A stretch of DNA of 64,000 bases, taken from contig JAYKXP010000087.1 of the NCBI GenBank assembly GCA_037176845.1, positions 62,001-126,000 of the forward strand, read 5' to 3'. The position numbers and the translations under genes were made by a program. The notes beneath the pieces were generated by a model. The model did no database searches and was not told the origin of the DNA. It saw nothing but the letters and a program-made list of their open reading frames with translations. The DNA is from Paramarasmius palmivorus. Taxonomy: Eukaryota > Basidiomycota > Agaricomycetes > Agaricales > Marasmiaceae. Shown piece after piece: positions 45,176-61,878 of the stretch. Numbering within the stretch: the first letter of the stretch is position 1; each line of letters opens with the position of its first letter.

Positions 45176-47469
45176 TTACCCCCCTCCTAATGCCTATCGT
45201 CCGCGATAGGCTAGAACCTGCAATCCGTCCCTCCTCCCATTCTAGATCCGTGGACTGTCCTTCAGTCAGATTTTCCAGTTTGCGCCAGGGTAGTGAGCTG
45301 AAGATGGCTGCTGCTATCTTCTTTGGTGCATTGGGATGCTTTTGGTGGAATTCCTCTATCTTCTCACCCGCATTCTTGATGTTGGCTGCTGGTTCCCAAC
45401 TGTTGTCTTCCTCTCCAAAGCCTTCCCATTGCACCAAATACTGCAACCCCCTTCGGTATATCCTGCTGTCCAGAATCTGCTCAACCTCAAACTCCTCTTC
45501 TCCTTCTACTTCTACTGCTTCAGGTGGTGGTGGTCGTGATCCATTGACATCGTTGCCCTTCCAGGGTGAGAGCCAGTTGACGTGGAAGACATTGTGTACC
45601 TTCATAGCCGGAGGAAGCTTAAGCCGGTAGTCCAGTTCACCAACCTTTTCAATGACTTTGTAGGGTCCTAGTTGCCGTGGTCCCAGCTTCTGGTTTGCCT
45701 GGTGGATTCTGATGTCTTTTGCTGACAGCCACACCTTGTCTCCTACTTCAAACACATGTGCCTTCTTCTTTCCTGCCTCGTATGTCTCTTTCATCCGCTC
45801 CTTGCCCATGCGCAATGCTGCTTCTGCCTCTTTGCACACCTCCCTTAGGTTCTCTAGCCGGGTGTTCAATGCTGGGAATCGGGTTGGGCGTCCTACTGGG
45901 ATGGTGAAGTCAGGTGTGTAGCCGTACATGACTTCGAATGGGCTACGGTCGTGTGCTGTGTGGACTCGGGAGTTTAGTACAAACTCTGCTGTTGGGAGCC
46001 AGTCTGACCAGTCGTCCTGACGTTTATCCACGAATAGGCGTAAGAACCGTTCCACCTCTTGGTTGGCTCTTTCGGTCTGGCCATTGGCAGCAGGGTGGTA
46101 GGCAGTAGTTAGTCCTGGCTGTAGCCCTAGTCGCTTGTACAGAGCTCGGGTTACTTGTGCTGCAAATTGCGGACCTCGGTCAGATACGAACTTGTGGGGA
46201 ATCCCATGCAGACGGAAGATCTCCCGGTAATGAAGGTCAGCGACTCCTTTGGCATCAAGGGTAGTGGTGGTGGGGAGAATGTGGACTTGCTTGCTGTACA
46301 GGTCGATGTAGGTGATGATGGCATCGTAACCATTGCTGAGGGGGAGTCCTGTGATAAGGTCAACTCCTACTACACACCAAGGTCCTTCTGGCACTTCCAT
46401 GGGTTGGAGTGTTGCGTCAGGATGAACAGCTGGTTTGGTGCGTTGGCAGCGCTCACACCCTTGAACATACTTCTCTATGAAAGAGGACATGTTAGGCCAC
46501 CAGTAGTAACGTTTCACCTGTTCTAGTGTCCCGTGTTTTCCCAGGTGCTCTGCTGTAGACGCATCGTGGCACTGCTTTAGGATCTCCTTCCTCAAATCTT
46601 CATCTGCTGGAATGTACAGCTTCCCCTTATAGTACACCAGGCCGTCGTCTTCTTCCCACTCCACTAGACCGTTGGCCAACTTCCTCGCCCCGTCCTTCTC
46701 CAGCGCCTCTACTGCCTGCAGTACCTCCACTTCTCTCTCTACTCCCTTGGGTATTCTTTCCTCTAGGGCATCTCCTCCTACTCGCGCAGCTCCAATCTTC
46801 GCAAACATCTCTGGCTTCAGAACTACCTGCTCACGATTGTCCTCAGCATCCAACACCTGCAGCTCTGAGATTCGCGACAGGGGGTCTGCCTGAGTGTTCG
46901 TTTTGCCAGGTTTGTGTGTCAGACGGAAGTCAAATCGTGACAGCCAAAGCGCCCATCGGGCTTGACGACGAGTCAGGTCCTGAGCTGTCCTCCAGTACTC
47001 CAGGTTTCGGTGGTCGGTGATTATCTCGAACGACTGAGGGAGTCCTTCCAAGTAGTGGCGCCAGTCCTCAAGGGCTCGGATGATGGCTAACATCTCACGG
47101 TCGTAGATCTCGTAGTTCCTCTCAGCTGGTGCCATGCTCTCTGATCAATATGCCACTGGGTGCCATAATCCATCATCCTGCTGTTGAAGGATAACTCCGC
47201 CAGTAGCGTAGCCCGAGGCGTCCACTTCCACTCGGGTTGGCCGTTCCGGATCCCACATCACCAGTATTGGCTCCTCAGTGAAAGCCTTCTTCAGGGTATC
47301 AAAGGCTTCCTGATGTCGCCTTCCCCAGTCCCACCGTTGCTCTTTCTTGGTGAGGTCGTGCAGGGGTCGAGCGATCTTGGATAAGTCTTTGATGAATCGT
47401 CGGTAGAAGTTGGCGAAGCCGATGAACCCACGAAGCTCACGAAGGTTGCGGGGTGTGCTCCACTCTTTG
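45171..47469 (-). pseudogene. Chromovirus pol, 3' half: RNase H, integrase, chromodomain
   Basis: From the hAT border the frame reads the RT thumb and tether (RELRGFIGFANFYRRF), then RNase H (VEVDASGYATGGV, YEIYDREMLAI, TDHRNLEYW). An in-frame TGA at 47,147-47,145 splits RNase H where relatives have a sense codon (probably CGA to TGA). After it, 654 codons stay open: the integrase zinc finger (H...H, CERC), the catalytic core with three acidic residues (GVDLITGLP, VSDRGPQF, NGQTERANQEVE), a GPY motif (QLGPYKVIEKVG) and a C-terminal chromodomain (YLVQWEGFGEEDNSWEP). The chromodomain would target histone marks in known chromoviruses. The stop at 45,171 lies in the first bases of the LTR. Confidence 0.95.
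47462..47469. repeat. Target site duplication of hAT element 2, left copy
   Basis: ACTCTTTG, identical to 61,871-61,878; 8 bases is the hAT hallmark. Confidence 0.95.
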
Positions 47470-47489
47470 TAGGGGTGCCAACAGGTCGG
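47470..47489 (+). repeat. Left terminal inverted repeat of hAT element 2
   Basis: Matches the complement of 61,851-61,870 at 18 of 20 bases, starting TAGGG(G/A)TGCCAAC. Confidence 0.92.
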
Positions 47490-47664
47490 CTGGCCCCCCG
47501 GCTAAGCAGGTCAATACCCGCTGAGGACCGGACCGGGTTGCGGTAACGGATGCGGTTGACCCGGTTCCGTGTAACCGGTACAACCAGGTCAAAGCGGGTA
47601 CGTTGGTCTCGAGCCGCGCATTTTTCAGGGAGTCAAGGACGCGTTATTTATTGATATTTGGAAC

Positions 47665-47770
47665 TACAATACAACGTACTAGAGATACAACAATGTAAGT
47701 ACTAAAAATACAAGATGTAACTGGCTAAAAATACAACGATGTAACTACTAAAAATACATGAGAGATGTGT
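47665..47770 (+). repeat. Short tandem repeats near the left end of hAT element 2
   Basis: Three to four imperfect copies of a 22-24 base unit with core CTAAAAATACAA(G/C)(A/G)ATGTAACT. They lie in the non-coding stretch between the left terminus and the first cargo gene. Confidence 0.75.
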
Positions 47771-47946
47771 ACTACGTATCTAGATGTAAAGTAAAGAGCG
47801 TGAAGTCCGTACTACAGTTTTTCCGTAGTCTATACGAATACATAAACGATACAGTAAAATTTATATTAGTAGTAAGGAGCTGGAATGAAAAATCGAAATG
47901 ATATTTTGATACAAAGCCCCAAGCACAAAAACAATGTTCATTTACA

Positions 47947-48430
47947 TCACATCTTCCCCTCCATATCCCTGATCATATCCTCCAAAACCTTCGGGGTGTC
48001 CTGGTAAGAGTAGGGGCTCCAAAAGAGCTCCCTATGACGCTTCCCGCCTTCCACAGCGTTAGAAAAAAAGAGATAGAAAAGAAAGGAACTCACATCCGGT
48101 GCAACGCCCAATGTGGCGTACAAATCCCAGCTCCAGCATCCTCAGGTGCACGCAGCGCTCTAGGACGCGTTAGTACGACAAACGATATTGAAAAGAAAAC
48201 ATACCTGTCTTAGTTGCCCAGCGCGCCTGGACCGACTTCCTGCGGTAATAGCTATGCCCTTTGCATAGACGATTCCATTCCCGGACCCTTCTCGCTACAC
48301 ATCTCGATCTTCCAACCTTCCACAGAGTCCTTTTCCCTACCGGCCTCTCCAGAACGTAAATCGCGCCCGGCCGATCCGATTTCGACGGTTTCTCCTTGAT
48401 CTTCTTGGTGAGCAACGATGTTCTTGGCAT
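47947..48430 (-). CDS. T5orf172/MUG113-like (GIY-YIG superfamily) small protein
   Basis: Three exons (48,430-48,205; 48,159-48,094; 48,047-47,947) with 45 and 46 base introns join to exactly 131 codons including the stop. The protein has GAIYVLERP (the GIY-like strand), LWKVGRSRCVARRVREW (the YIG-like strand plus the arginine helix), then TERCVHLRMLELG and a CTGC...HRELFW cysteine/histidine cluster. This order matches fungal T5orf172-domain proteins (Pfam T5orf172, meiotically up-regulated gene 113), a branch of the GIY-YIG endonuclease fold. Start chosen at the first ATG; extra 5' exons are possible. The upstream 600 bases (minus strand) are pyrimidine-rich. Nuclease activity is not established for this family. 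Confidence 0.7.
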
Positions 48431-49031
48431 TGAAGACGTCGACGATGATGGTGGTGAGTGAAGAGGGCGGTGAGGACGATGGTGGCGGATGAGGACGACG
48501 GTGATAGATGAGGAAGACGATGAGGGATGAAGACGACGTTGACGACTGAGAGTAAGCTGAAGGGATTGTCAAATGAGTACAAAGTCACAGCGCGAGAGAA
48601 AACAAACAGAAAATCAGTAACTGACAAACGATCTAAAGCAAAGTGAGTACTCACAAAGGTAAATGGGGAGGATTGAGTTGGTGTGAAGGTGAAGAAGGGT
48701 GAGTGAATGAAAAGAGTAAGTAAGGTAATCGATTCAAAGGAAAAAAACGATTACTCACAGTAGGTAGATGAGAAGGTACAGGGTTGAAGGCAGTAAGAGA
48801 ATATCTAAGAGGGAAAATTGTCAGCAACTCAACGACTTTGACGACCGGAATACTCACAATTGGCTTGAACGTTGCCAAGAGCACAAGTAGGGACAGCTTT
48901 GACGTTTGTCCGGCGCCAAAGCGCACACCGGGGTGATGACGCGCTGTGACCTATCGAAACAGCCGCGTTTTCGCGGAGAGCGTGGGGATTTGGGGTGAAA
49001 TAGTATAGGAATGAGTCGTGAGATACATAGA
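48431..49031 (-). promoter_or_regulatory. Pyrimidine-rich upstream region of the T5orf172-like gene
   Basis: On the minus strand the stretch is CT-rich with imperfect GACGACG/TCATCGTC repeats (48,430-48,550) and several TACTCAC blocks (48,650, 48,755, 48,855). CT-rich leaders are common upstream of fungal genes. No TATA box was pinned down. Confidence 0.35.
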
Positions 49032-49520
49032 TTATGCTTGAGGATGCTTGGGACAGACAGTCAAAAGACTGAGAAGGTTGGGGTTACTGTTGTTGATGAA
49101 CGGCTCAAGAGCCATACCAAGACCTTGTGTAAGCCCGGATAATAGGTCGAGAGCGACGACCAGGAAAGATTTGTCGGGTTCGTCGCGGTCAGGATTCTGT
49201 TGGAATGCTTGGTAATGTAGGAATGAGTTGTGGATGATGCTGGCGCAGCGCTTGAAGACTGGGCCAGCATATGGAAGGAATGAGGGCCCCATAGCGATCG
49301 TCACCGAGGCAAGACACTGAGAGGAGCCTATTAGCATGCGGCTTCAAAAAACGAAATGGTGGTGTCCAACTGTACCTCGAGTAAAGGAATGAGATCGACA
49401 GCTTTGACCACCTGTTGGTCAACGGTAGCATGAGGATCTTGACGTACGTCGGATTCGAAAGTTCACAGCCAAGATCAGCAAGAGTGCCGACCGCATCATC
49501 AACATGTCGAAGGTCCTGAT
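49032..49520 (-). pseudogene. Captured fragment of transportin (karyopherin-beta 2)
   Basis: On the minus strand, 49,485-49,410 reads AVGTLAD, CELSNPTYVKILM and PLTNRW; a frameshift leads to DLIPLLE; a 59-base GTACAG...CAG intron (49,375-49,317) follows; then [27 protein letters not shown] and [21 protein letters not shown]. The succession equals the mid-region of transportin-1/Kap104 HEAT repeats ([48 protein letters not shown]). Only about 150 of the roughly 900 residues are present and the frame is broken, so this is a gene fragment. The retained intron shows it was copied from genomic DNA, not mRNA. Confidence 0.8.
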
Positions 49521-49610
49521 GCTATTATATGATCTGTACTTCGAATAGAGCGACGAGCGAACATAAAGAATGTGCGGAAATCGTAGAGCAGAAGGGAGAG
49601 ATGATGAGGG

Positions 49611-49740
49611 TAAGAATGCTATTATATGAGGTACTCATGTACCAATAGCGAATGCGGAGGACGACCCGTATCAGGTAAGGATCCTATTATACGAGGTACT
49701 CGTGTACCAATAGCGAATGCGGAGGACGGTGCAGGTCGAA
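49611..49740 (+). repeat. Two tandem copies of a 65-base unit with a hairpin
   Basis: 49,611-49,675 and 49,676-49,740 differ at few positions (TAAG(A/G)AT, then CTATTATA(T/C)GAGGTACTC(A/G)TG, then TACCAATAGCGAATGCGGA). Each unit holds a GGTAC-(4 bases)-GTACC inverted repeat. It lies between the two captured gene fragments. Confidence 0.85.
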
Positions 49741-49859
49741 TGTGGTTCTGAGTCTTCTCGCTACTCCCTACCACGCTCTCTTTATTTTTCGTTCCTTCCT
49801 TCTCCTTGTACCGTTCACCAGAAGAGCTGTGGGGAGCTGTGGGCAATCCCGGCCAGTAA

Positions 49860-50393
49860 AGGAGGCACGAGATGCCCAAGTCTTATGCGACTTATGAGCG
49901 TTGTCTTTCCGCTTGTCACCAGCGGCAGGGTTTCAAACGTCCTGAAAGACCAGTCAGCAAGTGGCCGTGAATCATAAGATAAACACTTACATCTTAAAAT
50001 AGAAGACCTTGAATTCTGCTGATGCGGCAGAGGGGATAAGGTGCTCGTCGGCGATATCGGGGATATCCTAGCAGATTTTGACGAGTTTAGACTCGATCTC
50101 TTCTCTGTACCCCTTGACCGTCGACACCTAGTCCTCATTACCATTCAATCCAACTCTTGATCGGGGTTTTCCGCGAAGCATGGCAAGATTAAGAGCAAGT
50201 TGCGCTCAGCGGTGAGTTCTTGGTCTGACGAGGCGAGATGTTGTTACGGAGAAGTTGTATGATAAGAGTCGAGTTCTTGGAGTTCCATTCCCTCTTCTGA
50301 GCGATGAAGCTGGCAATAGCATCATCGGAGGCTTGTGCTTGCCAAGTTGTAGGTACGGTTGGTATCGAGGATCCCGTAGAAAGTTGGTACTGT
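49860..50393 (-). pseudogene. Captured 14-3-3 gene in circularly permuted order
   Basis: Reading down the minus strand: after an acceptor (CTACAG) at 50,394, FYGILDTNRTYNLA and (shifted frame) SDDAIA, then STLIIQLLRNNI. This is the C-terminal part of a 14-3-3 protein (FYYEIL, NLAKQAFDDAIAEL, STLIMQLLRDNLT). Directly after it, at about 50,235, SSDQELTAERNLL begins the N-terminal part, followed by GNED, VKGYREEIESKLVKIC, a TAG, and HLIPSAASAEFKVFYFKM to 49,991. After an intron-like stretch, GDKRKDNAHKS (near 49,900) is the middle part. Normal order is N-middle-C; here it is C-N-middle. Stops and shifts show it is not functional. It would normally be a phosphoserine-binding adaptor. Confidence 0.75.
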
Positions 50394-50672
50394 CTGTAGA
50401 TAATTGATTAGATCCAGTCCTTCAGCGACAGTCACAAGAAGAAACACAAACTTTCATGGCACCCAGGTTCTTGAGCAGAGCTCCTAGTCGAGGTAGTTGC
50501 ACATCTCGCGCTCTGTTTAGTCAATAGGTTTAGATGAAGGGGCTGTTCTTTGATTTGAATGGGATAGACGGTAGTCATGATTATAGATGAGAAGGCTAGA
50601 GCACTTGTTAGATAAACCCCTAGCGCGTATTGCAGAAAGGCTTACCGTTCAAGCATGAAGATTGACCGATAG

Positions 50673-50735
50673 ATGTCTGTTAGCTTCACCGCTAAGGCGG
50701 TTACTAGTCCCTTGAGCCGCGAAGAGGCCAGACAT
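50673..50735 (+). repeat. Structured 63-base motif, copy 1
   Basis: Starts ATGTCTG and ends CAGACAT (outer stem). An inner hairpin CCGC/GCGG is extended by A-T at 50,688-50,701. The linkers GTTAGCTTCACC, GGTTACTAGTC and AGAGGCCAGACA are shared with the other two copies. See the findings for the compensatory changes. Confidence 0.85.
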
Positions 50736-50881
50736 ATTCAAGGGGTAAGTGTAGCATGGCGGTGGGTGACACAGAGCATTCGTCGAATTGGAAAAATGTT
50801 CAGGGCCAGTCACCAAACATGGTTCCAAAAGTATCAAGAAATTAAATACAACGATTCGCTGCTAAATGTTTCTATTGATGA

Positions 50882-51502
50882 CTAGTTGCCACCCCGACCA
50901 CTTGCACCCCTTCCCCGACCACGAGAAACAAATAGTCCTCTACGAGAAACAAATACTCCTCTACGAGAATTACTTCTTTGACCACGACTGCCAGCAAGTC
51001 CTCTACCTTGACCGCGAATCCCAGCTCGTCCTCCACCTTGACCGCGAATCCCAGCACGTCCTCCACCTTGACCACGACTGCCCAAATGACCACCAGTTCC
51101 ACGACCACCAGCTTGACCAGGTAGAGCTGTTGCTCGAACAGGAAGAGCTGTTGCTCGAACAGGAAGAGCTGTTGCTCGCGCAGGAAGAGCTATGGCTCGA
51201 GCAGGAGCACCCCTGTGAATCCGAGCAAGTGTATGTCCACGAGCTAATCCACGAACAGCTCCAGCTCGACTTCCTCGAAGAACACCATCTACTCGGTGGA
51301 GTTCTGTTCCGTCAGAAAACAATGGGTGCGATGTTCGCTCAGAAAAAGGATTGCGATTTATCCATGGGTGGAAATCGGCTGAGGCTACAGGGGCTGTGTT
51401 GCTTTCGATAGAAGTATCGGCGTCAGCGTTGTTAATATCAGCCATTCCTGTATCTAAAAGATGAGCAAAGATCAACGGATAGCCAGACGAAAGTACCTGC
51501 AA
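50882..51502 (-). CDS. RGG/glycine-arginine repeat protein ORF
   Basis: 206 codons, open throughout. A likely internal start (MADINNADADTSIES) precedes a short non-repetitive part (WINRNPFSERTSHPLF). Then come alanine/arginine repeats (LPVRATA units, 21 bases each) and GQGGGRAGIR units (30 bases each), ending SRGRGRGASGRGGN. RGG-type tails usually bind RNA. The repeat units are multiples of three, so the opposite strand is also open (50,866-51,411), and coding strand choice rests on composition only. It lies between motif copies 1 and 2. Whether it is expressed is unknown. Confidence 0.4.
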   Translation of the reverse strand: MQVLSSGYPLIFAHLLDTGMADINNADADTSIESNTAPVASADFHPWINRNPFSERTSHPLFSDGTELHRVDGVLRGSRAGAVRGLARGHTLARIHRGAPARAIALPARATALPVRATALPVRATALPGQAGGRGTGGHLGSRGQGGGRAGIRGQGGGRAGIRGQGRGLAGSRGQRSNSRRGVFVSRRGLFVSRGRGRGASGRGGN

Positions 51503-51738
51503 CGTTGCTTGTCATTGATGGGGGTGGCAGGTAGGTTAACCCGTTATCAATGCCATTTAAGTGTTCTATACCTAAAACCCTGAACGGTAACCGACAAGCC
51601 ATGATGTAAACGATGCGGCATTGAAGAAAACTCATGCTGATGTTGTTCCCGATTTCGCGAGACCTAAAATCATGAATTAGCCCACAAGAGTACGTCAAAG
51701 ATGCGAAGATACGAACACATGGTACGAAGAGTAAAGTA

Positions 51739-51801
51739 ATGTCTGTTAGCTTCACCGTCAAGACGGTTACTAGTCCCTTGAGCCGCGTAGAGGCCAGACA
51801 T
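51739..51801 (+). repeat. Structured 63-base motif, copy 2
   Basis: Same layout as copy 1. The inner hairpin is CCGT/ACGG and the outer stem ATGTCTG/CAGACAT. Direct orientation relative to copy 1, which lies 1,066 bases to the left; the RGG-repeat ORF lies between them. Confidence 0.85.
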
Positions 51802-51928
51802 TGTTCAAGGGTTGTGTTGAGGAATAATTCTAATTATAGGATTGCGCATTATATTCATCTATATTGCAGTTTATAAGACTTAGAGCTAACATTACAATGT
51901 TCTATACGCTAGCAATACAGTATTAATT

Positions 51929-54900
51929 CTATGAAGTTCGACGTTTCTTAATACTCTTACGCTGCACTCCTGTACGTTCCTTTACCTCCTGCGCCTCCTT
52001 TTCCACCCGAGTGAAAATATGTTTCCCAAGCTCAATCTGACACGCATCTCTAGATCGCAACTCGTATTGTACATCTGGATTGAGTGCTCCTGTTTCGACG
52101 TTGACAGAACAACACGCGAATACGGCCTCGCTTTGACCCATCAACGTTGGGGGAACAGTAGCGATGCGGACAGCATATTCTCCTGCATAATTACCCCTCA
52201 GCACATATAAGGCCTTCTTCGTTTTTGTGGTAATCCCCCGAGTCTCGATTTTCATGGTATTAGGCATGATGCGGTCGTGTCTCTCGTGCTTGTAAAAAAT
52301 GCAGCGATCTCCGAGTTCGGTATAGCCCACCTTAACGATCTTTTCCTGACCCTTGAATGTGTATTCGAGCTGGTCGTCTTGGCCAAAGAGCTGTACACAA
52401 AACAATTGTCTTGCCGGTTTCCCTTGAAGCTCGTAAAGCCAACGCTGGCTTGGATGAGCATCATCAGACCACATCTTGCGACACTGGATATTGATGGGAG
52501 ATTCGAGAAACTTCAGCATTTTTTCGATGCTTTCTTGAGTGACTACTGGCAATGGTACGGTCACTGGCTGTTCGGATGGTACGGTCGCTGGCTGTTCGAA
52601 TGCATCTGATAGCTGTACATGTCGCGGATTGTCACTGATGACCCTATCTCTGAGACCTTGATCGTTGGCGACGTCGTCAAAAGCTCTGTCTCTTTGGCAG
52701 GTCCAGGACGAAACTGGGGTCTTGGACAAACCAGGGATGTAAGAATCTTTAGGGAGGTAACGAGACGACGACGAAGGGCCGTAATATGTCGTAGGGTTGT
52801 ACTTTGGATGAAAGTATCCAACTCGAACCACAAACGGTGGTCTGGGCGCTTCAACGACATGTAGGGGCATCTTCGTTCTAAGTCAAGTTGATCAGTATCT
52901 GCTATGTGGCGGGAAACAATCACGTACCCAAAGTCGAGGACATGGTCATAGTCCACCTCGAACCTTCCCCCTACAGACCCATGCGCAGTCCATTCCACTT
53001 GAACCGATAAACCACTGGCCGTTTCGCACCCGTATCTGACATCTGTGACCCGAGCTCTACCTCTAATACCGTTGGCAAAGAGGTCGACCTCCCTGTACAT
53101 CCAAGGAATCTCAGAGGTGCGGCTATTGCGTATCTCTCGGTCGATCTGAGTTGGTGTGAGTAATCCGGGGTGTTTTTCCGCCAACAAACGTTGGACGTCT
53201 GCTGAGTTCTCCTTGAGGTGCGTTGTCCGATAGTCAGCAGCTTCCATCCAAGGAATGTTGGGCTGGGGTCGAGAAAAGATGCTGCGCTGTGGTGGGGTGT
53301 ACTGGACCAGAAAGTTCGGCTCCACCAACACCTCAACATGATCTCTCTCATTCAGAGTACCGTAGCTGCGTTCAACATTGGAGTCGTTCCTGGTGTGGAC
53401 GAGAGTTTGTTCATGTCCACCACCATGGTACTCTCCCTGCCCTAGCACGAAACCATCCCATCCATGGATTGTATGCTGCACTAAATCACCAGTTTTCCAA
53501 GACTTTTGAACACCCCAGCCGACATGCCTTCGAATCTTCTCCTGGTCCAAGGTGTGCAGTCCATCTTGTTCCACTGCTACAACATCTCCCATGATACCAG
53601 ATGACTTGGTTACGACCCTATCACCCACTTGAAACTCCCAGCCAGACACACGGGGAAAGTACTCGTTGAGAAGAGGGTGTTTGGAAGAGAAGAAGAGTAG
53701 GCCTTCCCGTGGTGTAAGTGGACGATGGAGAGGTTTAACGAATTCGGTGGAGATTTTTTCGACACGAAGACCATGTTCGACATCGTATCTGCAAGAGGAC
53801 AGGAACTCTGTATTCAGAGTCTCCGGATCGTAAAGGCATTGGATAACTTCGCTATGCAAGTCAACCTGGCAAGCTTGGTGCAGCCGTATTGCCTTCGCCA
53901 GCACACGGGGAAGCATCAACACCTTGATTTCCTTACGCCCAGAGGATATGATCAATGCAGCATCGCCATGATAATGCCTCAGGCTATCGCATCGTTTGAG
54001 TATCTCCGGTGGTATCGCTGGCTTGTGGCGCTTGGATGAAGTGAAGGGTTTATCGGTGCGTGGTTCTGGTTCTGGCGTAGCTGACTCTTTTGAAGAGTGA
54101 CTGGCTAGTTCGTCTTGTGATATGAGCCATTCAGGATCAAGGAGGTCAGGTTGGGATGGGGGTGGAGGTGTTTGGTACCGACGTTCGTCCTTTTTCGGTG
54201 CATGAGGTGGGTCGGTATATAGCCATACCCAGCTACCAACCGAATGCTCAAAGGACGTCCTCTCGAAGTTCTGGATGAGCAGGTCTAAGGACAAGGGTGC
54301 TTCGAATACGTCCATCTGGACCATCTTGATACCATTCGGACCAGCTGGGTTCCGAACGACGTGAGGACACATTCTAAAGGCCACCGCTGTCAGCCCAGGT
54401 TTCTGGGTTTCTACGTAAAGAAAGTTGTCCTTTGCTCGTCTGGAGTATATCTTGACGTCGCAATCAGCTGGCCGCTTGTCCTTGAAGGTCTTACAGAAAT
54501 CCTTCCACCAACGAATCACATCGCGCTGGCGTCTGTGCTAGATGGTGGTCAGTTGTGAATTAGGACCAGTGTTTTTCACGACTTACATGGACATAGAGCA
54601 GCCATATTGACCGTAACCCAAGTTGGTGGCGCTTTTTCTCTCTACGCTCTATGCTCTCTTTGTTTTCGTCGCCATAGAGTGCCAACATCACCTTGGATGC
54701 ATACTGAAATGTCCTCTTGTCGGATGTGCCTTTTGCAAAGTCTAAAATGCTTGTATCGATGTCGGGTTGTGATAATTCGTCCTCGTGTAACTCTGTCCTC
54801 ATCGAAATAGCGTGATAATTGATTGGAGGGCCTCTAACCTCTTCATCCTCGTCATCTCTAGCAATAAAATCACCTATTCAAAGGATTAGCATGAGCAGCA

Positions 54901-55524
54901 GATAGAATGTCAGAACATACCCAAGTCATCCTCGTCTTCCTCATCCTCTTCGTCATGGCTAACCTCTGCTTCGAGATCTAAGAATCCCGACACCCCATCC
55001 ACATCCCTTCCATTGCGCTTTCGCTTCTTTGACATTCGCTGAGAGGGTGATGCTTCTTCACCTGCTGACTCTGCGACAGGTTCGTGTCCATTTCCCGAAT
55101 ATCCTCCAGAAGATATCTTATCCGCATTCATTGGCCCCTCAGGCTCTGTTAAATGCGGAGGCGGATGTGGAGAATGTGAGGGAAGGCGAGTCGAATGAGT
55201 TGAGGGAATCTCGACATCCTGCATTGGCTGACTGCAAGATGGAGACTCATCCTCGATACGTTGAGGGCTTCTAATGTATTCTGGTGTTTTGACGGTCATT
55301 GACACGTCTGAAGGACGGAATGGACGTGGTGAAATGGATTTGAATGGGTAGGTTTCGCCTTCGATATACTCTGGCGTTTGCACCCCTTGAAAACGTGTAG
55401 ATTCTAGCTCTGCGACCGTTATCTCTCCGCAAGTCGTGCTGTTACTCGTCTCGCCTCCGGTGTGAGCATTCCCATTGCACTCGTATTCGTGTATCGTGTT
55501 CTGGCTATAGCCATCCAAAGTCAT
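51929..55524 (-). CDS. Spt5-like transcription elongation factor (transposon cargo)
   Basis: Four exons (55,524-54,921; 54,873-54,587; 54,537-52,928; 52,877-51,929) with canonical introns of 47, 49 and 50 bases sum to 3,450 bases, 1,149 residues plus stop, with no internal stop. The N-terminus ends in a basic KKRKRN, GFLDLEAEV and a long acidic run, as in Spt5. Residues about 300-390 (WWKDFCKTF, NFLYVETQKPG, VQMDVFEAPLSL) fit an NGN-like domain. Around 600-670 two KOW-like segments occur (FQVGDRVVTKSSGIMGDVV; GDLVQHTIHGWDGFVLGQ). The usual C-terminal CTR repeats are not evident; the tail is basic (RKSIKKRRTS). Spt5 with Spt4 clamps RNA polymerase II in the nucleus. It is strongly diverged, so it is unlikely to be the host housekeeping copy. 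Confidence 0.65.
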
Positions 55525-56913
55525 CGTATTTTCTTGCTGTGCATGTAATTGATGAGTCGAGCTAAATTGTTTCGTTCTCCTGGGTGGGTTCGAGATACAC
55601 CCTGCCCTATCCTAGCAAAAAAACGTGCTTCAGCATCCAAGCTCATCATTTCATTCGAGGTAGAAGAAGACGAATGTTTTTCATGAACTTAGAGTTCAAA
55701 TTGTTTGATTATGGTTTAATCTTTTATTTCATTATGTTTAATCTACTCTAATCTACGAATGAAAAGAAACCTTATTACCTTGGGGCCAAAATACCCAACG
55801 TAGAGTCGTAGACGCTAGCCTGCGGCAGTGGTTTGATGCAAGGAGCGTTGTTACGTACCCTTGTCCAGAACGCCGAGGCATGAGGCATGACATGAGGCCT
55901 CACTTAGGGAGGAAACTGCTCACGTGTGCAGTTTCCCGGCTAACTTGCAAGCAAAATCGTGTGACAAGTTAGCGCTCTGAGCGGACTTTGAAACCATTTG
56001 CTCCTTGTCTGCTACACCCATCATCTGTCCCTCTGCCAGTGCCCCGTCCCTTCGTAGTACAATAATTCATTCATGTATATTAGTAGCGTTCATAAATTAA
56101 CAGTAGAGTACTAATCGTAATACAAACCATACAAGAATTAAGGAAACTAACTACTGAGATACTGTAAGGAAAGGGATGGTCATCCCATCTTATTTTTTCC
56201 GCATGAAAACAATGCGCCGCTTACTGATACCGTTCGTAGAAACGATGTTCAGACGCCCTCGTTGCTGGATTCGGTGTATCGGAAGTCAAAGGAACCATGA
56301 AATGGAAGATATCATATCGTGGAGTCATAGTTGCCTCTGGCGAGCAACGTGTAGCGGGATTAGGAAGGTCGGATAGCGATGGCACCATGGCCATGAGCCG
56401 CAGTGAGTAACAGACCCTTTTTTTTGGTCGTTTGACTCACCTCCGTGTTTTCGATAGATCTCATTGATGGGGAAGATATGTCGTACTTAGCGATACTCTT
56501 TTTGCGGTAGTATCTCAATGTCGCGTATCATTGCAGGTACAGACCTTCGGTCGCGCACGTAACAGGCCTGAACGCGTTCTCCACAGCAATGGCTGCTATG
56601 TCCATATCCGTGAACCGATCATAACAACGTCCTATGCTAAGTCCTAATCCGAATTTCCTTGTTAATGGTAATTATTTCACTGATCCGATTGGTTCTGACA
56701 AACGAATACCTTTACCACTTCGTCCACTTCGATGGAAGCGATGTGATCCCAGTCTGTCGGGTATTAACTCTTTCTTTCCAGCACGTCCCAATCGCCTACC
56801 GAATCGGAATTTGCAGCACAAACACTCACTCTTTCGTTCCAGCATCTCCAGTCGCCTACCGGCATTTGTCGCGTATAAATAGCAGGTGTTGCACTCACTG
56901 GCCCAGCATCCTG
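55525..56913. other. Non-coding stretch upstream of the Spt5-like gene
   Basis: About 1.4 kb without a recognised gene. It should contain the minus-strand promoter of the Spt5-like gene (a CCTATCC block near 55,605 and an AT-rich stretch at 55,690-55,770) and the plus-strand promoter of the small gene at 56,914. Short open frames at 56,634-56,880 resemble nothing known. Confidence 0.4.
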
Positions 56914-57282
56914 ATGGCCATGGCCAAGTACCGCTATCAACGAGGAAAAAAGCTGAGAGTCCGCCTCAAAGTTGGTAAAAGGCTTCGGAAAATCCCCGAA
57001 AACCCATTATTGTTCCCTGGTTAGTTGCACATCTTCTTTCCAATCGCGTCGTCGTTAATAAGCTTGTAGACCGGCTGGGTCTTCCAGTACCATCAAGAGT
57101 TGGTCGTGGTACGGCCTGGCTCGCTTATAATTTTTGGGCAAAGTGAGTTCAGGGTCTTTCTTCACGTAAAATCGTCCTCAACGGTCATTAGCTTGTCCGT
57201 TAAACCCAGCAAGAAGCTTGCGCTCCAGTGGGAGCATTTTGTCTGCTCAATGATGGCGGCGATTTATATCGATACGCATTGA
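56914..57282 (+). CDS. Small basic protein of unknown function (89 residues)
   Basis: Three exons (56,914-57,019; 57,070-57,142; 57,192-57,282) with GT-AG introns of 50 and 49 bases join to 90 codons including the stop. The N-terminal third is very basic (KYRYQRGKKLRVRLKVGKRL), followed by PENPLLFPDRLGLPVPSRVG and WLAYNFWANLSV. An in-frame join of three exons by short canonical introns supports a real gene. The stop falls about 60 bases before motif copy 3. I do not recognise the family; a longer 5' part is possible. Confidence 0.45.
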
Positions 57283-57340
57283 TTGTTATACGTTGAATGA
57301 ATATCCATTTATGAGTTAGTAGATGTAGTACCTCCCGATC

Positions 57341-57401
57341 GTGTCTGGCCTCTTCGTGGCTCGGGAGACTAGTAACCCATTTGGGTGAAGCTAACAGACA
57401 C
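57341..57401 (-). repeat. Structured 61-base motif, copy 3 (inverted)
   Basis: Reads GTGTCTG...CAGACAC on the minus strand with inner hairpin CCCA/TGGG. It is inverted relative to copies 1 and 2, so copies 2 and 3 bracket the Spt5-like gene and the small gene as an inverted pair. Confidence 0.85.
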
Positions 57402-57791
57402 ATGAAAGGTTTCCGAAACGATTCCCAACGTGTTTCCAATGTCCGTCGCGTACTCCTTATGTCACAAATATTGTTTGACTAGTTTTTAGAATTTTTGTAT
57501 CTATTCATCGATATACCCAACCTAGTAACCCTGAATGGCGTCTCGAATACGTGTCGTTCTCATGTCATTGCCCCCGGTACGGAATTAAAACTTTTCACGT
57601 CTGAATCTCATTGACATTTCCTTTCAGAGTGAATGTGGGTGGAACGTGTACCAACAGCCTTAGATTAGCACCTTCGCTTTGGTACGTCTTCCAGAAATCG
57701 ATTCAAACAGCCTTGGCTTACGTCGTTGTTCATTACAGGATATAAGAACAGGATTACTCCACGAAATCACCACTTCAACTTGCGCAGAAAC

Positions 57792-60700
57792 ATGGCTGGA
57801 CCCAAGAAGAAGGCAAACAGGAGAGGTATGCATGATGTCTCTGTGTCGTCTTCTGGTACTAATGTGTTCGTTACAGTAAAAGATACGAACCCTTCAGCAA
57901 CAACAACGAATGCGAATCCCCCAGCAACAACAGTTCATGTGATGCTTGAGCCTCAAGATACGGCTTTGGAAGATCCTGCACGGCCGCCTAGTAACTCTCA
58001 GACTGGTGCGTCATGTCCATATATTCAATAACTTCATGGTTGCTAACACGCCTGTTTAGTTCCTGTATTGGCCGCTCCTAGCGCTGCTCAAGAACTCTCT
58101 GTAGCCAACAATGGTGTGTCTCACTTATGCCTTTCTCAACTCCAGTCTCATCCAGTTAGAAGACACTCGTGGACGGTCACCAGTTACTACACAACGTGTT
58201 ACTCGTTCCTCGACTCGTACACGAACGCCAAGCAAGCCTCCAGTGCCTCAAACCGTGACCCCCCAACCTACAGGCAATCCTCGACGTCGGCGCTCCAAGA
58301 AGAAGGATGGCGGGCAAGGTACAGAGGATGAAGTTCAAGGAGTTAGTGCACAACCTCTCTGTGAGTTCTAGTTCTTTTAGTATCTGTACCTATACCTGAT
58401 CTCTATCGACAGACGCGGACGACCCTCAAGAAGCTGCGTTTTTCAATCACCCGATTGCTCAGTCGACGCCATTGGTTTCCGCAATGCGAAGGGCTGGATC
58501 TCGAAGCCGTGAACGCACCAATGTTCGCTTTGATGTCTCTTCTTCGGGAGAGTACATCAATGTTGATCACATCTCTATCAATACGGATGACGACATATCT
58601 ACATCCCTCTCGGTTGCAGCTGTGCCAGCCAGGAACCGCGCTAACAAGAACATGGGAAGTAAGTTGTCGACTTCCCTTCAAACCTTCGTAATGCTCACCG
58701 CGTTTATCTCAGAGGCCGTAGACAAGCTTAACAGGGCCAAAACTCGAGGCCGCAAGAACACTTCGCGTCGGGACAGTATCTCACGTCGCCAGCGAGACTT
58801 TGACGCCGCTGTCCAGAGGCCTGTCGTCGACTTCACCACCTCGCCGCCAACAAGGAAGGCTGGCACTGGGGCACAGCGCTCCAAGCGCGCCGCTGACGTT
58901 CATGAATTCTTCACCTATGAAGGTGGCTACTACAGATGTAAGTATTGCTTACGGTAAGTTTCATTCCTGCTTGGTGTGACGTGCTATTGATCAGATCTAC
59001 AAATAGGAAAAGGGAAGAGTCGGCGATCCCAGAAGCCATCCATGTTCACCCATATTCACCTGGCACCGGCAACACAAACATGCGAAGGCATTTAGTTGGT
59101 GCACATTTTCCTGAATGGATAGACGACTGCGACGCTCGCGGTATCCCAGTAACTGCTGATTGCGCCATCGAAAAAGCCAAACTATATCGAGATCAACACG
59201 ATCGCCCAGATCCCACTGTTGCCCTCGAGTTCGCTGCATTCAGTATAGAAGGCTTAGTCGATTGTTTGATGGAGCTAATCGTCAAGGATGACCTCGTAAG
59301 TTTATATGCTCCCCACTCTGTTTGACAACGTTCAATACTCACCTCCAATCTTAGCCGATCAGTTTTGTTGAGTCGGAAAGTTTTGTCCGGCTGATACTCT
59401 ACCTGAAACGAGACCTTCGAGAGAAAGATATACTCGGGCGCACGACGATGAGGAAGGTCATCATCCAAGCGTGGTACCTTCACATGCACGAACTCGCCAA
59501 AGAATTTCAGGTCAGTTCTACCTTTTCCCCCAATATGGGCTGTTGTATTGATTTACTCCTACTAGAATGCGATCAGCAGAATATCCTTTACGACTGATTG
59601 CTGGACAGACTCCACTCTTTATCCCTTCCTTGCCCTCACTGCCCACTGGGTGTCTGAAACCTTGGTTACTGAGAAGGCGTCGAACGGCACTGTAACAACT
59701 CGCAGCGTCTTGAAGATGCGCTCAGAGGTAATAGGCTTCCATGAGGTTCCAGTGTCACACACTGGTGTGCATCTCGCGCAGGCCATTAAGTACCTACTTC
59801 GTAGGCTTGGTATCGAGAAGGATGTGCGTATGCACCGTACACACCATTCAGATTGACTAACAATTGGCATTACTAGGTCGGCTATTTCACGACCGATAAC
59901 GCTTCTAACAATGACACTATGCTCGAACATCTTGCTTCACACTTTAAGGCTATTGATGTCCAGTTTCACGCACATAAAAGTCACATGCGGTACGTCCAGT
60001 TGTTGCCGTAGTCGTACCTAAACCTGAACCTGTCTTTAGGTGCTTCGCACACATTCTCCATCTGGCGGTGACACCTATACTGGAAGAGATGGATAATGTA
60101 GATATTGCATCTTTGGTCGCCGCTGAAGAGGGGGAGACAGTCCGGTCAGAAGAAGGAATTCTCACAAGAACTCGAGGCATGGTTCGCGAGGTGTGTTCCT
60201 TATCTCTCGGTTCAAATAATAAGTCTGATCATGCTGGCAGTGTCGCGCTTCTAGTCAGAGACGAGTCACCTTCGAAGAGATGGTCAAGGCTGCGAGGAAG
60301 GGAAGGGAACTCTTACTGACAAGGGATATCCCTAATCGTTGGAGTTCCGCACATTTAATGGTCCACAGGGCCGTGATACTACGTCCAGTAAATGTTCAAT
60401 AATATTCCCCAGTAGTACGTGCTAAACTTTGCTCAGCAATTAGATGCGTTCCGTGTGCATTCCGCTCATGGAAATGACATGACGCCGCACATCTTAAACA
60501 AGTACGAGTTCAGAGGCTTGATACAGTGCGAGGAGATCCTTAGGGTAAGTCATAATCAACACTCGCCCTTTACTCGTTCATCATTCTTTACAGGTACCTC
60601 ACGCATTCCAACATTTCCTATCCCAGGAAGATACACCATGCCTTGCCTATGCCATCCCTGCATTCTACGCTGTCGTCGACCAATGGATCGCACTCCAGAC

Positions 60701-61613
60701 CAAGTACCCAAACCTTTATGATGTTATCGAACCAGGGATCATGAAGCTGCAGGATTATCTGGCAAAAATCGACGACATTCCGGCATATCTATTATCCATG
60801 AGTAAGTTGTTCCTCGTCTTAAGCGCTAAGTGCCATTCCGAACTGAGCGCTTTTCAGTTATCAATCCCCTCGTCAAAATGCGGTGTATTGATCAGAGAAT
60901 GCCCCGGCGCAGGAACGAGATACTCGAGATGCTTTACAAAGAGGTACAGTGTCCTTGTTAATCTCTTGCTTAATTCTAATGACGATTTCTAGATGCGTGC
61001 ATACCAAGACGATATGTCTTCCCAGTCTTCGGGATCTGCAGATACGCCAGCACCCTTCGAGTTAGGCGCCAATTGGGCGACTCAGACACTGGCGATGGAC
61101 ACCAACGTGAAGCATACTCGTGGAAGCGTGGAAGAAGAGGTGTCCATGTATCTCAAGGACAACACCCCAGTTCCTCCTGGTAAAGATGGACTACTGCGAT
61201 ATTGGGAGGTGAGACTACCAGCCTTTCTTCACATTTACCTTTTCTCATCTTAGTTCTAGGCCGCACACACAAAATATCCGAATCTCTTTTGGGTGGCCAT
61301 TGATCTCCTTCCCGTTCAAGGAACATCTGTACCCTGCGAGCGACTATTTTCCTCTTCACGGCGGACAAAAACCGATCTACGAACTCGTTTGGGGAACGAA
61401 CTGATGGAGGCTATCCAGATTTTGAAGAACACTCTCAAGAAGAAAGGCCCCCTCCAGTTCACACGGCACCTCAACTTCGAACGAGAGGCTCAGGAATTTG
61501 AAGCCTGGCTGGACGAAGAGGATGACCACGTATTGGAAACCGATGATCCATATCTATTCGCTGCGAACTTGTCGAAGGTATCGTTTGTAGAGTCTGCACC
61601 AGTCTTGGCATAG
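57792..61613 (+). CDS. hAT-family transposase, apparently intact
   Basis: ATG at 57,792 (MAGPKKKANRRG). After a long basic, low-complexity N-terminal region comes a BED zinc finger (YRCKYCL, then NMRRHLVGAH; C-x2-C...H-x4-H). The catalytic region has SFTTDCWTDSTLYPF (first D), GYFTTDNASNNDTM (second D), CFAHILHLAV and IPNRWSSAHLM. The end is the hAT dimerisation domain YPNLFWVAIDLLPVQGTS, VPCERLFSSSRR and LMEAIQILKN, stop at 61,613. About fifteen short introns join in frame at every border I followed. No stop or shift was found, in contrast to hAT element 1. The protein would act in the nucleus, binding the subterminal repeats and cutting at the terminal inverted repeats. Confidence 0.88.
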
Positions 61614-61850
61614 TATCGTGTATTAAATCTTTGTCTTGTCTTCTTGAAATTGTATTATCTACGACTATTATACATGTTTGCGATTGATTTTCATCGCCTG
61701 AAAACGTTCAGCTATTAGTGAAAAAAAAAAGGGCGGCAAGCCGACGGCTTAGCCGCTTCAACCCGGTAAGATGCCGAGCGGCTCACTGCTTATCGGCTCC
61801 GACCCGTTAGCCATGCCGAGGCTCGGGGCTAGGACCGGTAGCGACCCGAC

Positions 61851-61870
61851 CCGACCCGTTGGCATCCCTA
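61851..61870 (-). repeat. Right terminal inverted repeat of hAT element 2
   Basis: Complement of the left end. It is preceded by several GGGTCG-type repeats (on the complement) that probably bind transposase. Confidence 0.92.
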
Positions 61871-61878
61871 ACTCTTTG
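61871..61878. repeat. Target site duplication of hAT element 2, right copy
   Basis: ACTCTTTG, identical to 47,462-47,469. Removing the element plus one copy restores the retrotransposon pol frame. Confidence 0.95.

Follow-up and report, generated by a model that had tools for sequence, protein, structure and literature searches.

Transposons of the hAT superfamily are recognized by an 8-bp target-site duplication, short inverted ends and a C-terminal hAT dimerisation domain in the transposase, and autonomous members, to our knowledge, carry little beyond the transposase. The hepatitis delta virus (HDV) class of ribozymes has the helix order P1-P2-P3-P1-P4-P2, and the NusG/Spt5 paralogue LoaP recognises RNA. 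Published accounts describe several systems that bear comparison with the locus analysed below. ToxhAT is a 14-kb hAT transposon linked to the transfer of ToxA (PMC9594970); in fungal HDV variants, two of which were shown to cleave, the cleavage site is typically occupied by a C-G pair and P4 contains a loop E (Li and Breaker 2017, PMC5640933); and bacterial NusG paralogues control a few targets (PMC6391919). Here we report the analysis of a 64,000-nt stretch (the window) of Paramarasmius palmivorus (Marasmiaceae, Agaricales) and of the 68.3-Mb genome to which it belongs, the contigs of which are labelled C1, C9, C79 and so on. The window contains a hAT element of 14,401 bp, and we consider it probable that this element represents a family of large hAT elements that keeps genes of the Spt5 and T5orf172 types together with predicted HDV-type ribozymes, by which the family is likely to control its own transcripts.

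By its duplication, its ends and the dimerisation domain of its transposase, the element is a hAT transposon; it differs from the superfamily at large in its size (14.4 kb in the window, 21.6 and 23.2 kb for the relatives on C145 and C167), its conserved extra genes and its repeated ribozyme-like RNAs. ToxhAT is a hAT transposon of equal size that likewise carries a non-transposase gene, but that gene is a host virulence gene (PMC9594970), whereas the P. palmivorus elements form a multi-copy, selected module with a transcription-factor gene. The RNA shares the helix order and the C-G pair at the cleavage-site position with the fungal HDV variants, but has no extra nucleotide between P2 and P3; whereas the gene associations of those variants vary widely (PMC5640933), the P. 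palmivorus RNA goes with a single gene family and with a DNA transposon. The HDV-like ribozymes of R2 and similar retrotransposons also place a self-cleaving RNA class in a mobile element, but at the 5′ end of a retrotransposon, whereas the present DNA element has up to three predicted copies, two of them downstream of genes. LoaP-type paralogues likewise combine an extra Spt5/NusG-type protein with a genetically linked RNA structure; the P. palmivorus paralogue is eukaryotic and transposon-borne, with the RNA downstream of its gene, and the bacterial systems serve as an analogy rather than as evidence. Among the titles and abstract openings of the open-licence literature, we found neither hAT and Spt5 joined nor an HDV-like ribozyme joined with a cut-and-paste transposon, and the pairing of a transposon with an elongation factor and a likely ribozyme is unusual.

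The boundaries of the element and its principal genes are the following.

47470-61870: hAT element, 14,401 bp
47462..47469: target-site duplication, left copy, ACTCTTTG, 8 bp
61871..61878: target-site duplication, right copy, ACTCTTTG, 8 bp
47470..47489, plus strand: left terminal inverted repeat
61851..61870, minus strand: right terminal inverted repeat
47950..48526, minus strand: T5orf172-domain gene, the coding blocks of which (48185-48526 and 47950-48169) are also conserved elsewhere in the family
51929..55524, minus strand: Spt5-like gene, four exons, 1149 amino acids (aa) in the NCBI model
57792..61613, plus strand: hAT transposase gene, about 14-15 exons, the first two uncertain

The left end at 47470 reads TAGGGGTGCCAACAGGTCGG and the right end at 61870, as its reverse complement, TAGGGATGCCAACGGGTCGG, the two being identical at 18 of 20 positions. 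For one given pair of ends, the binomial chance of such agreement is 1.6e-9, and that of the 8/8 duplication 1.5e-5. A search with the end motif, allowing up to one mismatch, returned 40 genome matches as against one for the reversed motif used as a control, which rules out ends that match by chance. The 14.4-kb length, the 20-base inverted ends with 18 matches and the exact 8-base duplication had all been proposed by an earlier sequence-only reading of the window, and all are confirmed. When the two flanks were joined into a 311-nt query, 29 matches were obtained, 18 of which run uninterrupted across the whole query (within 2 bases) at 94-99% identity. The window element is therefore a clean insertion into one of the multiple copies of a retrotransposon, others of which stand uninterrupted elsewhere in the genome. 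The target retrotransposon is itself abundant and little diverged around the insertion point, as these 18 matches indicate.

The transposase matches the hAT dimerisation domain of Pfam (Dimer_Tnp_hAT, PF05699; E 3.4e-10), and its frame is open across GT-AG introns, including at 60801-60992, where the frames are read with such introns; the first ~115 residues of the model are uncertain. Candidate stretches for the DDE catalytic residues and the BED motif are present in the model, and no match to the BED zinc finger (PF02892) was returned among the exon pieces scanned. The relatives of the transposase are named hAT, the nearest ones found being from Moniliophthora roreri (42-49%) and Collybiopsis confluens (34%). 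Acting through the ends, such a transposase would cut and paste the whole unit, and with mobility explained in this way the tyrosine-recombinase captain of a Starship giant transposon is not needed to account for it.

The T5orf172-type gene, also named by the earlier reading, scores above the Pfam cut-off (PF10544; E 6.6e-5, 23.8 bits against 20). The same reading had listed an Spt5-like gene and a small unknown gene side by side. The Spt5 type is borne out by fold comparison, but the separateness is not: NCBI protein P0001 (1149 aa) covers both, and two separate genes were rejected in favour of the single spliced gene that this protein spans. In the database the Spt5-like protein is closest to VNI00_014806 of P. 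palmivorus, at 100% (rounded), a protein that departs from our exon model at splice junctions. In the first of two predicted structures, which was the one compared, the NGN domain and the KOW1 domain (KOW1-linker1, following NGN) appear to be of the Spt5 type, and by this comparison of predicted folds the spliced gene is assigned to Spt5.

Transposase, Spt5-like and T5orf172 genes occur together on one contig in the window and on C145, C167, C250 and C9, and the order left end, T5orf172, Spt5-like, transposase is kept at these five loci, which belong to four diverged subfamilies; in C9 and C250 the left end and the T5orf172 gene are 587 and 677 nt apart. The two halves of the gene set are divided between C79 and C219, which may be parts of a single insertion. 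The element at C167:42418-65627 is complete on one contig and has the duplication CTTGGTAT on both sides, and it is a copy of the kind for which the sequence-only reading had proposed to search, with the same internal genes and a different duplication. Cargo unique to the window locus, with copies elsewhere holding the transposase only, was named there as the outcome that would speak against a mobile, cargo-carrying element of an unusual kind; it is rejected, as the same genes lie between the same ends at other sites, in diverged copies, and the earlier interpretation is supported and strengthened. C97 holds 6.7 kb with the matching duplication ATGTGTGG, in which the transposase and Spt5-like searches gave no match.

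Between subfamilies, the Spt5-like gene has a dN/dS of 0.11-0.16 at a dS of >1.2 (0.16 at dS 1.25 for the window and C79), and the transposase one of 0.13 at dS 0.63 (window and C145), all computed after removing columns with local identity <40%, adjoining gaps or adjoining stops, which biases dN downward. Both genes are under purifying selection between subfamilies, at dN/dS values of about 0.11-0.16, and in this family the additional genes are more than 'cargo', being constant components maintained by selection. The subfamilies are old, because the window differs from C79 and from C145 by the synonymous divergences just given. When the window is compared with C79, C145 and C167, the Spt5-like gene has about twice the synonymous divergence of the transposase, a difference that suggests exchange between subfamilies. 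An identity of about 98%, with an Spt5-like dS of 0.015, links the copies on C79 and C167, which occupy different sites, and on the basis of this identity the family moved fairly recently; for recent activity this is better evidence than the perfect duplication from which the earlier reading had drawn it.

The element also contains structured RNA, a feature absent from the earlier reading's list of contents. Repeats of ~72 nt occur at three sites.

51739..51811, minus strand: site 1 of the predicted HDV-type ribozyme, 118 nt past the stop codon of the Spt5-like gene
50673..50744, minus strand: site 2 of the predicted HDV-type ribozyme, 138 nt past an RG-rich open reading frame (ORF)
57332..57401, plus strand: site 3 of the predicted HDV-type ribozyme, upstream of the transposase and in the same sense

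All three can pair as P1a-P2a-P3-P1b-P4-P2b, a nested double pseudoknot. In an alignment of 12 sequences (10 distinct), all 17 pairs of P1, P2 and P3 are formed in every sequence; changes on both sides occur in three of the seven P1 pairs and three of the seven P2 pairs, P3 is invariant, and P4 varies in sequence, with compensatory changes and with its outermost pair kept in 11/12. A GC[UC]AA strand, at the place expected for the catalytic C between P4 and P2, occurs in 12/12, and CCUCUnCGUGG, the candidate P3/L3 core, stands in register with the Faecalibacterium prausnitzii HDV ribozyme in both short stretches; in the window copy GCUAA is also aligned to that ribozyme, in alignments that score at chance level. 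In all 12 a C-G pair occupies the cleavage-site position of P1, and no extra nucleotide separates P2 from P3. At the base of P4, AGUA stands opposite GAA in 12/12, strands that we take to resemble the loop E motif. The RNA is a likely HDV-type ribozyme, with catalysis predicted from its sequence and pairing.

A genome search with a 32-nt pattern, allowing up to three mismatches, found 26 places, as compared with none in either of two controls. Twenty-four lie inside these elements or downstream of Spt5-like genes: at 14 an Spt5-like locus has the RNA as its closest feature downstream on the same strand, at seven it is the second downstream copy (site 2), and at three, in the window, C9 and C250, it lies upstream of the transposase. 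The two copies at C179:12244 and C24:469736, the latter with three mismatches, have no known gene or element as a neighbour; a dispersed repeat unrelated to genes was rejected, these being the only such places among the 26. A second pattern, used as a check, gave 29 places (control, 3), of which 26 coincide and the others (C19, C31:342003 and C103) are at control level; a third was mostly noise (81 as against 75 in the control), yet its 23 places with 0-1 mismatches are all among the 26. From the last aligned Spt5-like residue to the RNA, the distance is 126-149 nt at 11 loci, and this near-constant spacing extends to paralogues of 25-27% identity on C246, C45 and C270, contigs without a hAT or T5orf172 match. 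Distant Spt5-like genes with a downstream RNA, and with no match to T5orf172 or hAT transposase on the contig, are present on C246, C270, C45, C106, C31 and C7, the copies on the last three lying <14 kb from the contig start. These Spt5-RNA loci may be members of another element type.

If the RNA is catalytic, it would cut the transcript beyond the stop codon, immediately 5′ of helix P1. The products would be a message that lacks its poly(A) tail and an uncapped stub, and they would favour termination or lower the amount of message. The Spt5 paralogue would ride RNA polymerase II during transcription of the element's genes and would shift the balance between ribozyme cleavage and normal 3′-end formation, thereby providing feedback on those genes. 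The RG-rich and T5orf172 proteins could serve as RNA- or DNA-binding helpers, roles at which we guess. In a narrower version, the element's Spt5 would act only on its own ribozyme-marked transcripts, deciding whether they are cut and discarded or finished, and the Spt5-ribozyme unit would also have spread outside hAT elements; such a private circuit, which in a eukaryote would correspond to bacterial NusG paralogues and their reading of an RNA structure, seems to us unlikely.

Several observations weigh against the reading of a selected family with ribozyme-controlled transcripts, and three other explanations are to be weighed with them. An ordinary hAT element might have caught passengers once, with the cargo inert and inherited only through a common ancestor. 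Host cargo is known in hAT transposons such as the 14-kb ToxhAT (PMC9594970), the dead transportin fragment of the window copy indicates that capture happens in this family, and the C167 Spt5-like gene is a decaying one: its dN/dS against C79 is 0.87, which fits a decaying copy. The pairs C145/C167 (0.87) and window/C1 for the transposase (0.38) are similarly high, as expected of decaying copies; the copies on C1 and C296 are decayed, that on C1 having both ends with unmatched flanks, and for the elements on C9 and C250 a search of the available sequence gave no right end. For inert cargo decay would be expected throughout, yet the Spt5-like gene, in filtered columns, keeps the low dN/dS given above at a dS of >1.2, and the gene order is common to four subfamilies, so that this explanation is already weakened and we think it quite improbable. 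Mis-joining of near-identical copies across contigs could in turn mimic shared cargo. The C145 element has unmatched flanks and an internal repeat and may be mis-assembled; the 8-mer on its left flank is the one found on the right of C114, as if the two were halves of one insertion, but it lacks the insertion that C114 and C167 hold, and its 99.8% identity with C79 across 9,321 bp may partly be a mis-join; C79 and C219 have TTTCGGGG in common, but their overlap is only 95.7% identical. By contrast, a single contig holds the whole of the window element, and another the whole of the C167 element, both with matching duplications, and the divergence of C9 and C250 is too great for them to have arisen by mis-joining of either, which refutes an assembly artefact for the family overall and leaves it a negligible chance.

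As for the protein and the RNA, the two Spt5 models have low confidence (pLDDT 40 and 52), a phmmer search with the single Spt5-like protein gave no PDB match at E <= 1, and the acidic N-terminus (Spt5_N, PF11942) stays below the Pfam cut-off (E 0.021-1.9), although in the expected place in all three full-length proteins. The RNA might instead be a protein-binding or stabilising 3′-untranslated-region (3′-UTR) element, for example a docking site of the Spt5-like or RG-rich protein, and its near-constant spacing downstream of the Spt5-like gene would suit such a role. The Rfam model of the F. prausnitzii ribozyme (RF02682, HDV-F-prausnitzii) scores at chance level, reaching 10.1 bits (E 7) and 10.6 bits (E 5.9) where the cut-off is 44; the alignment is full length and on the right strand, yet second in both lists behind an unrelated family. 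We regard it as a pointer rather than a match, and the RNA is outside this Rfam family. A tRNA or known Rfam RNA is likewise rejected, the Rfam scan of the whole element returning nothing at E <= 0.1. Plain folding, which is blind to pseudoknots, is unremarkable against shuffled sequences in three cases out of four (z -0.6 to -1.1), and the fourth sequence exceeds its shuffles (z -2.8) with a different fold. Every both-sided P1 change comes from one diverged copy (57332), at 13 of the 27 loci or fragments of Spt5-like type the 1.5 kb that follow contain no match to the RNA, and the site-3 core (15/20 matches) was not found in the B-subfamily stretches examined (C219, C114 and C145). However, an HDV ribozyme would have the observed order of helices, and the CCUCUnCGUGG core and the GC[UC]AA strand are likewise in agreement with one; the fungal variants, of which two were shown to cleave, typically share the C-G pair at the cleavage site (PMC5640933). 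A 3′-UTR element without cleavage is accordingly a minority reading that we hold to be doubtful, and self-cleavage within a selected family is the one we prefer. If correct, it would show that transposons are able to supply a transcription elongation factor of their own; a partner protein to test is also provided for candidate catalytic RNAs that lie downstream of genes, and the role of cellular HDV-like ribozymes in 3′ regions becomes directly testable.

Three further features lie between the T5orf172 and Spt5-like genes.

50882..51445, minus strand: RG-rich protein gene (arginine/glycine-rich, with a conserved N-terminal motif)
49034..49521, minus strand: captured piece of a host transportin (karyopherin beta-2) gene, partial
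49508..49608, strand not assigned: conserved ~100-bp block

The RG-rich gene corresponds to the RGG ORF of the sequence-only reading and, in a comparison covering the window, C79 and C167, has counterparts of 35-38% identity in the latter two. Of the two host-gene fragments in that reading, one is upheld as the transportin piece, which is 91% identical to C51 and in which two ORF pieces match transportin-1 (E 2.6e-17 and 1.3e-3); it is dead, and is part of a gene rather than a whole one. In two B-subfamily copies (C167:53110-58109 and C114) a ~5-kb insertion with a 1242-aa open frame, presumably Copia-like, splits the Spt5-like gene. The same terminal repeats are also paired only 0.5-1.2 kb apart on C33, C52 and C102 (483 bp each), C59, C80 and C4 and at C167:87974; these short relatives resemble miniature inverted-repeat transposable elements and are possibly moved by the same transposase. 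For the block at 49508-49608 neither a tRNA nor an Rfam family (E <= 0.1) was detected and no long shared coding frame was seen; it is 92-93% identical between subfamilies, as compared with ~70% in its surroundings.

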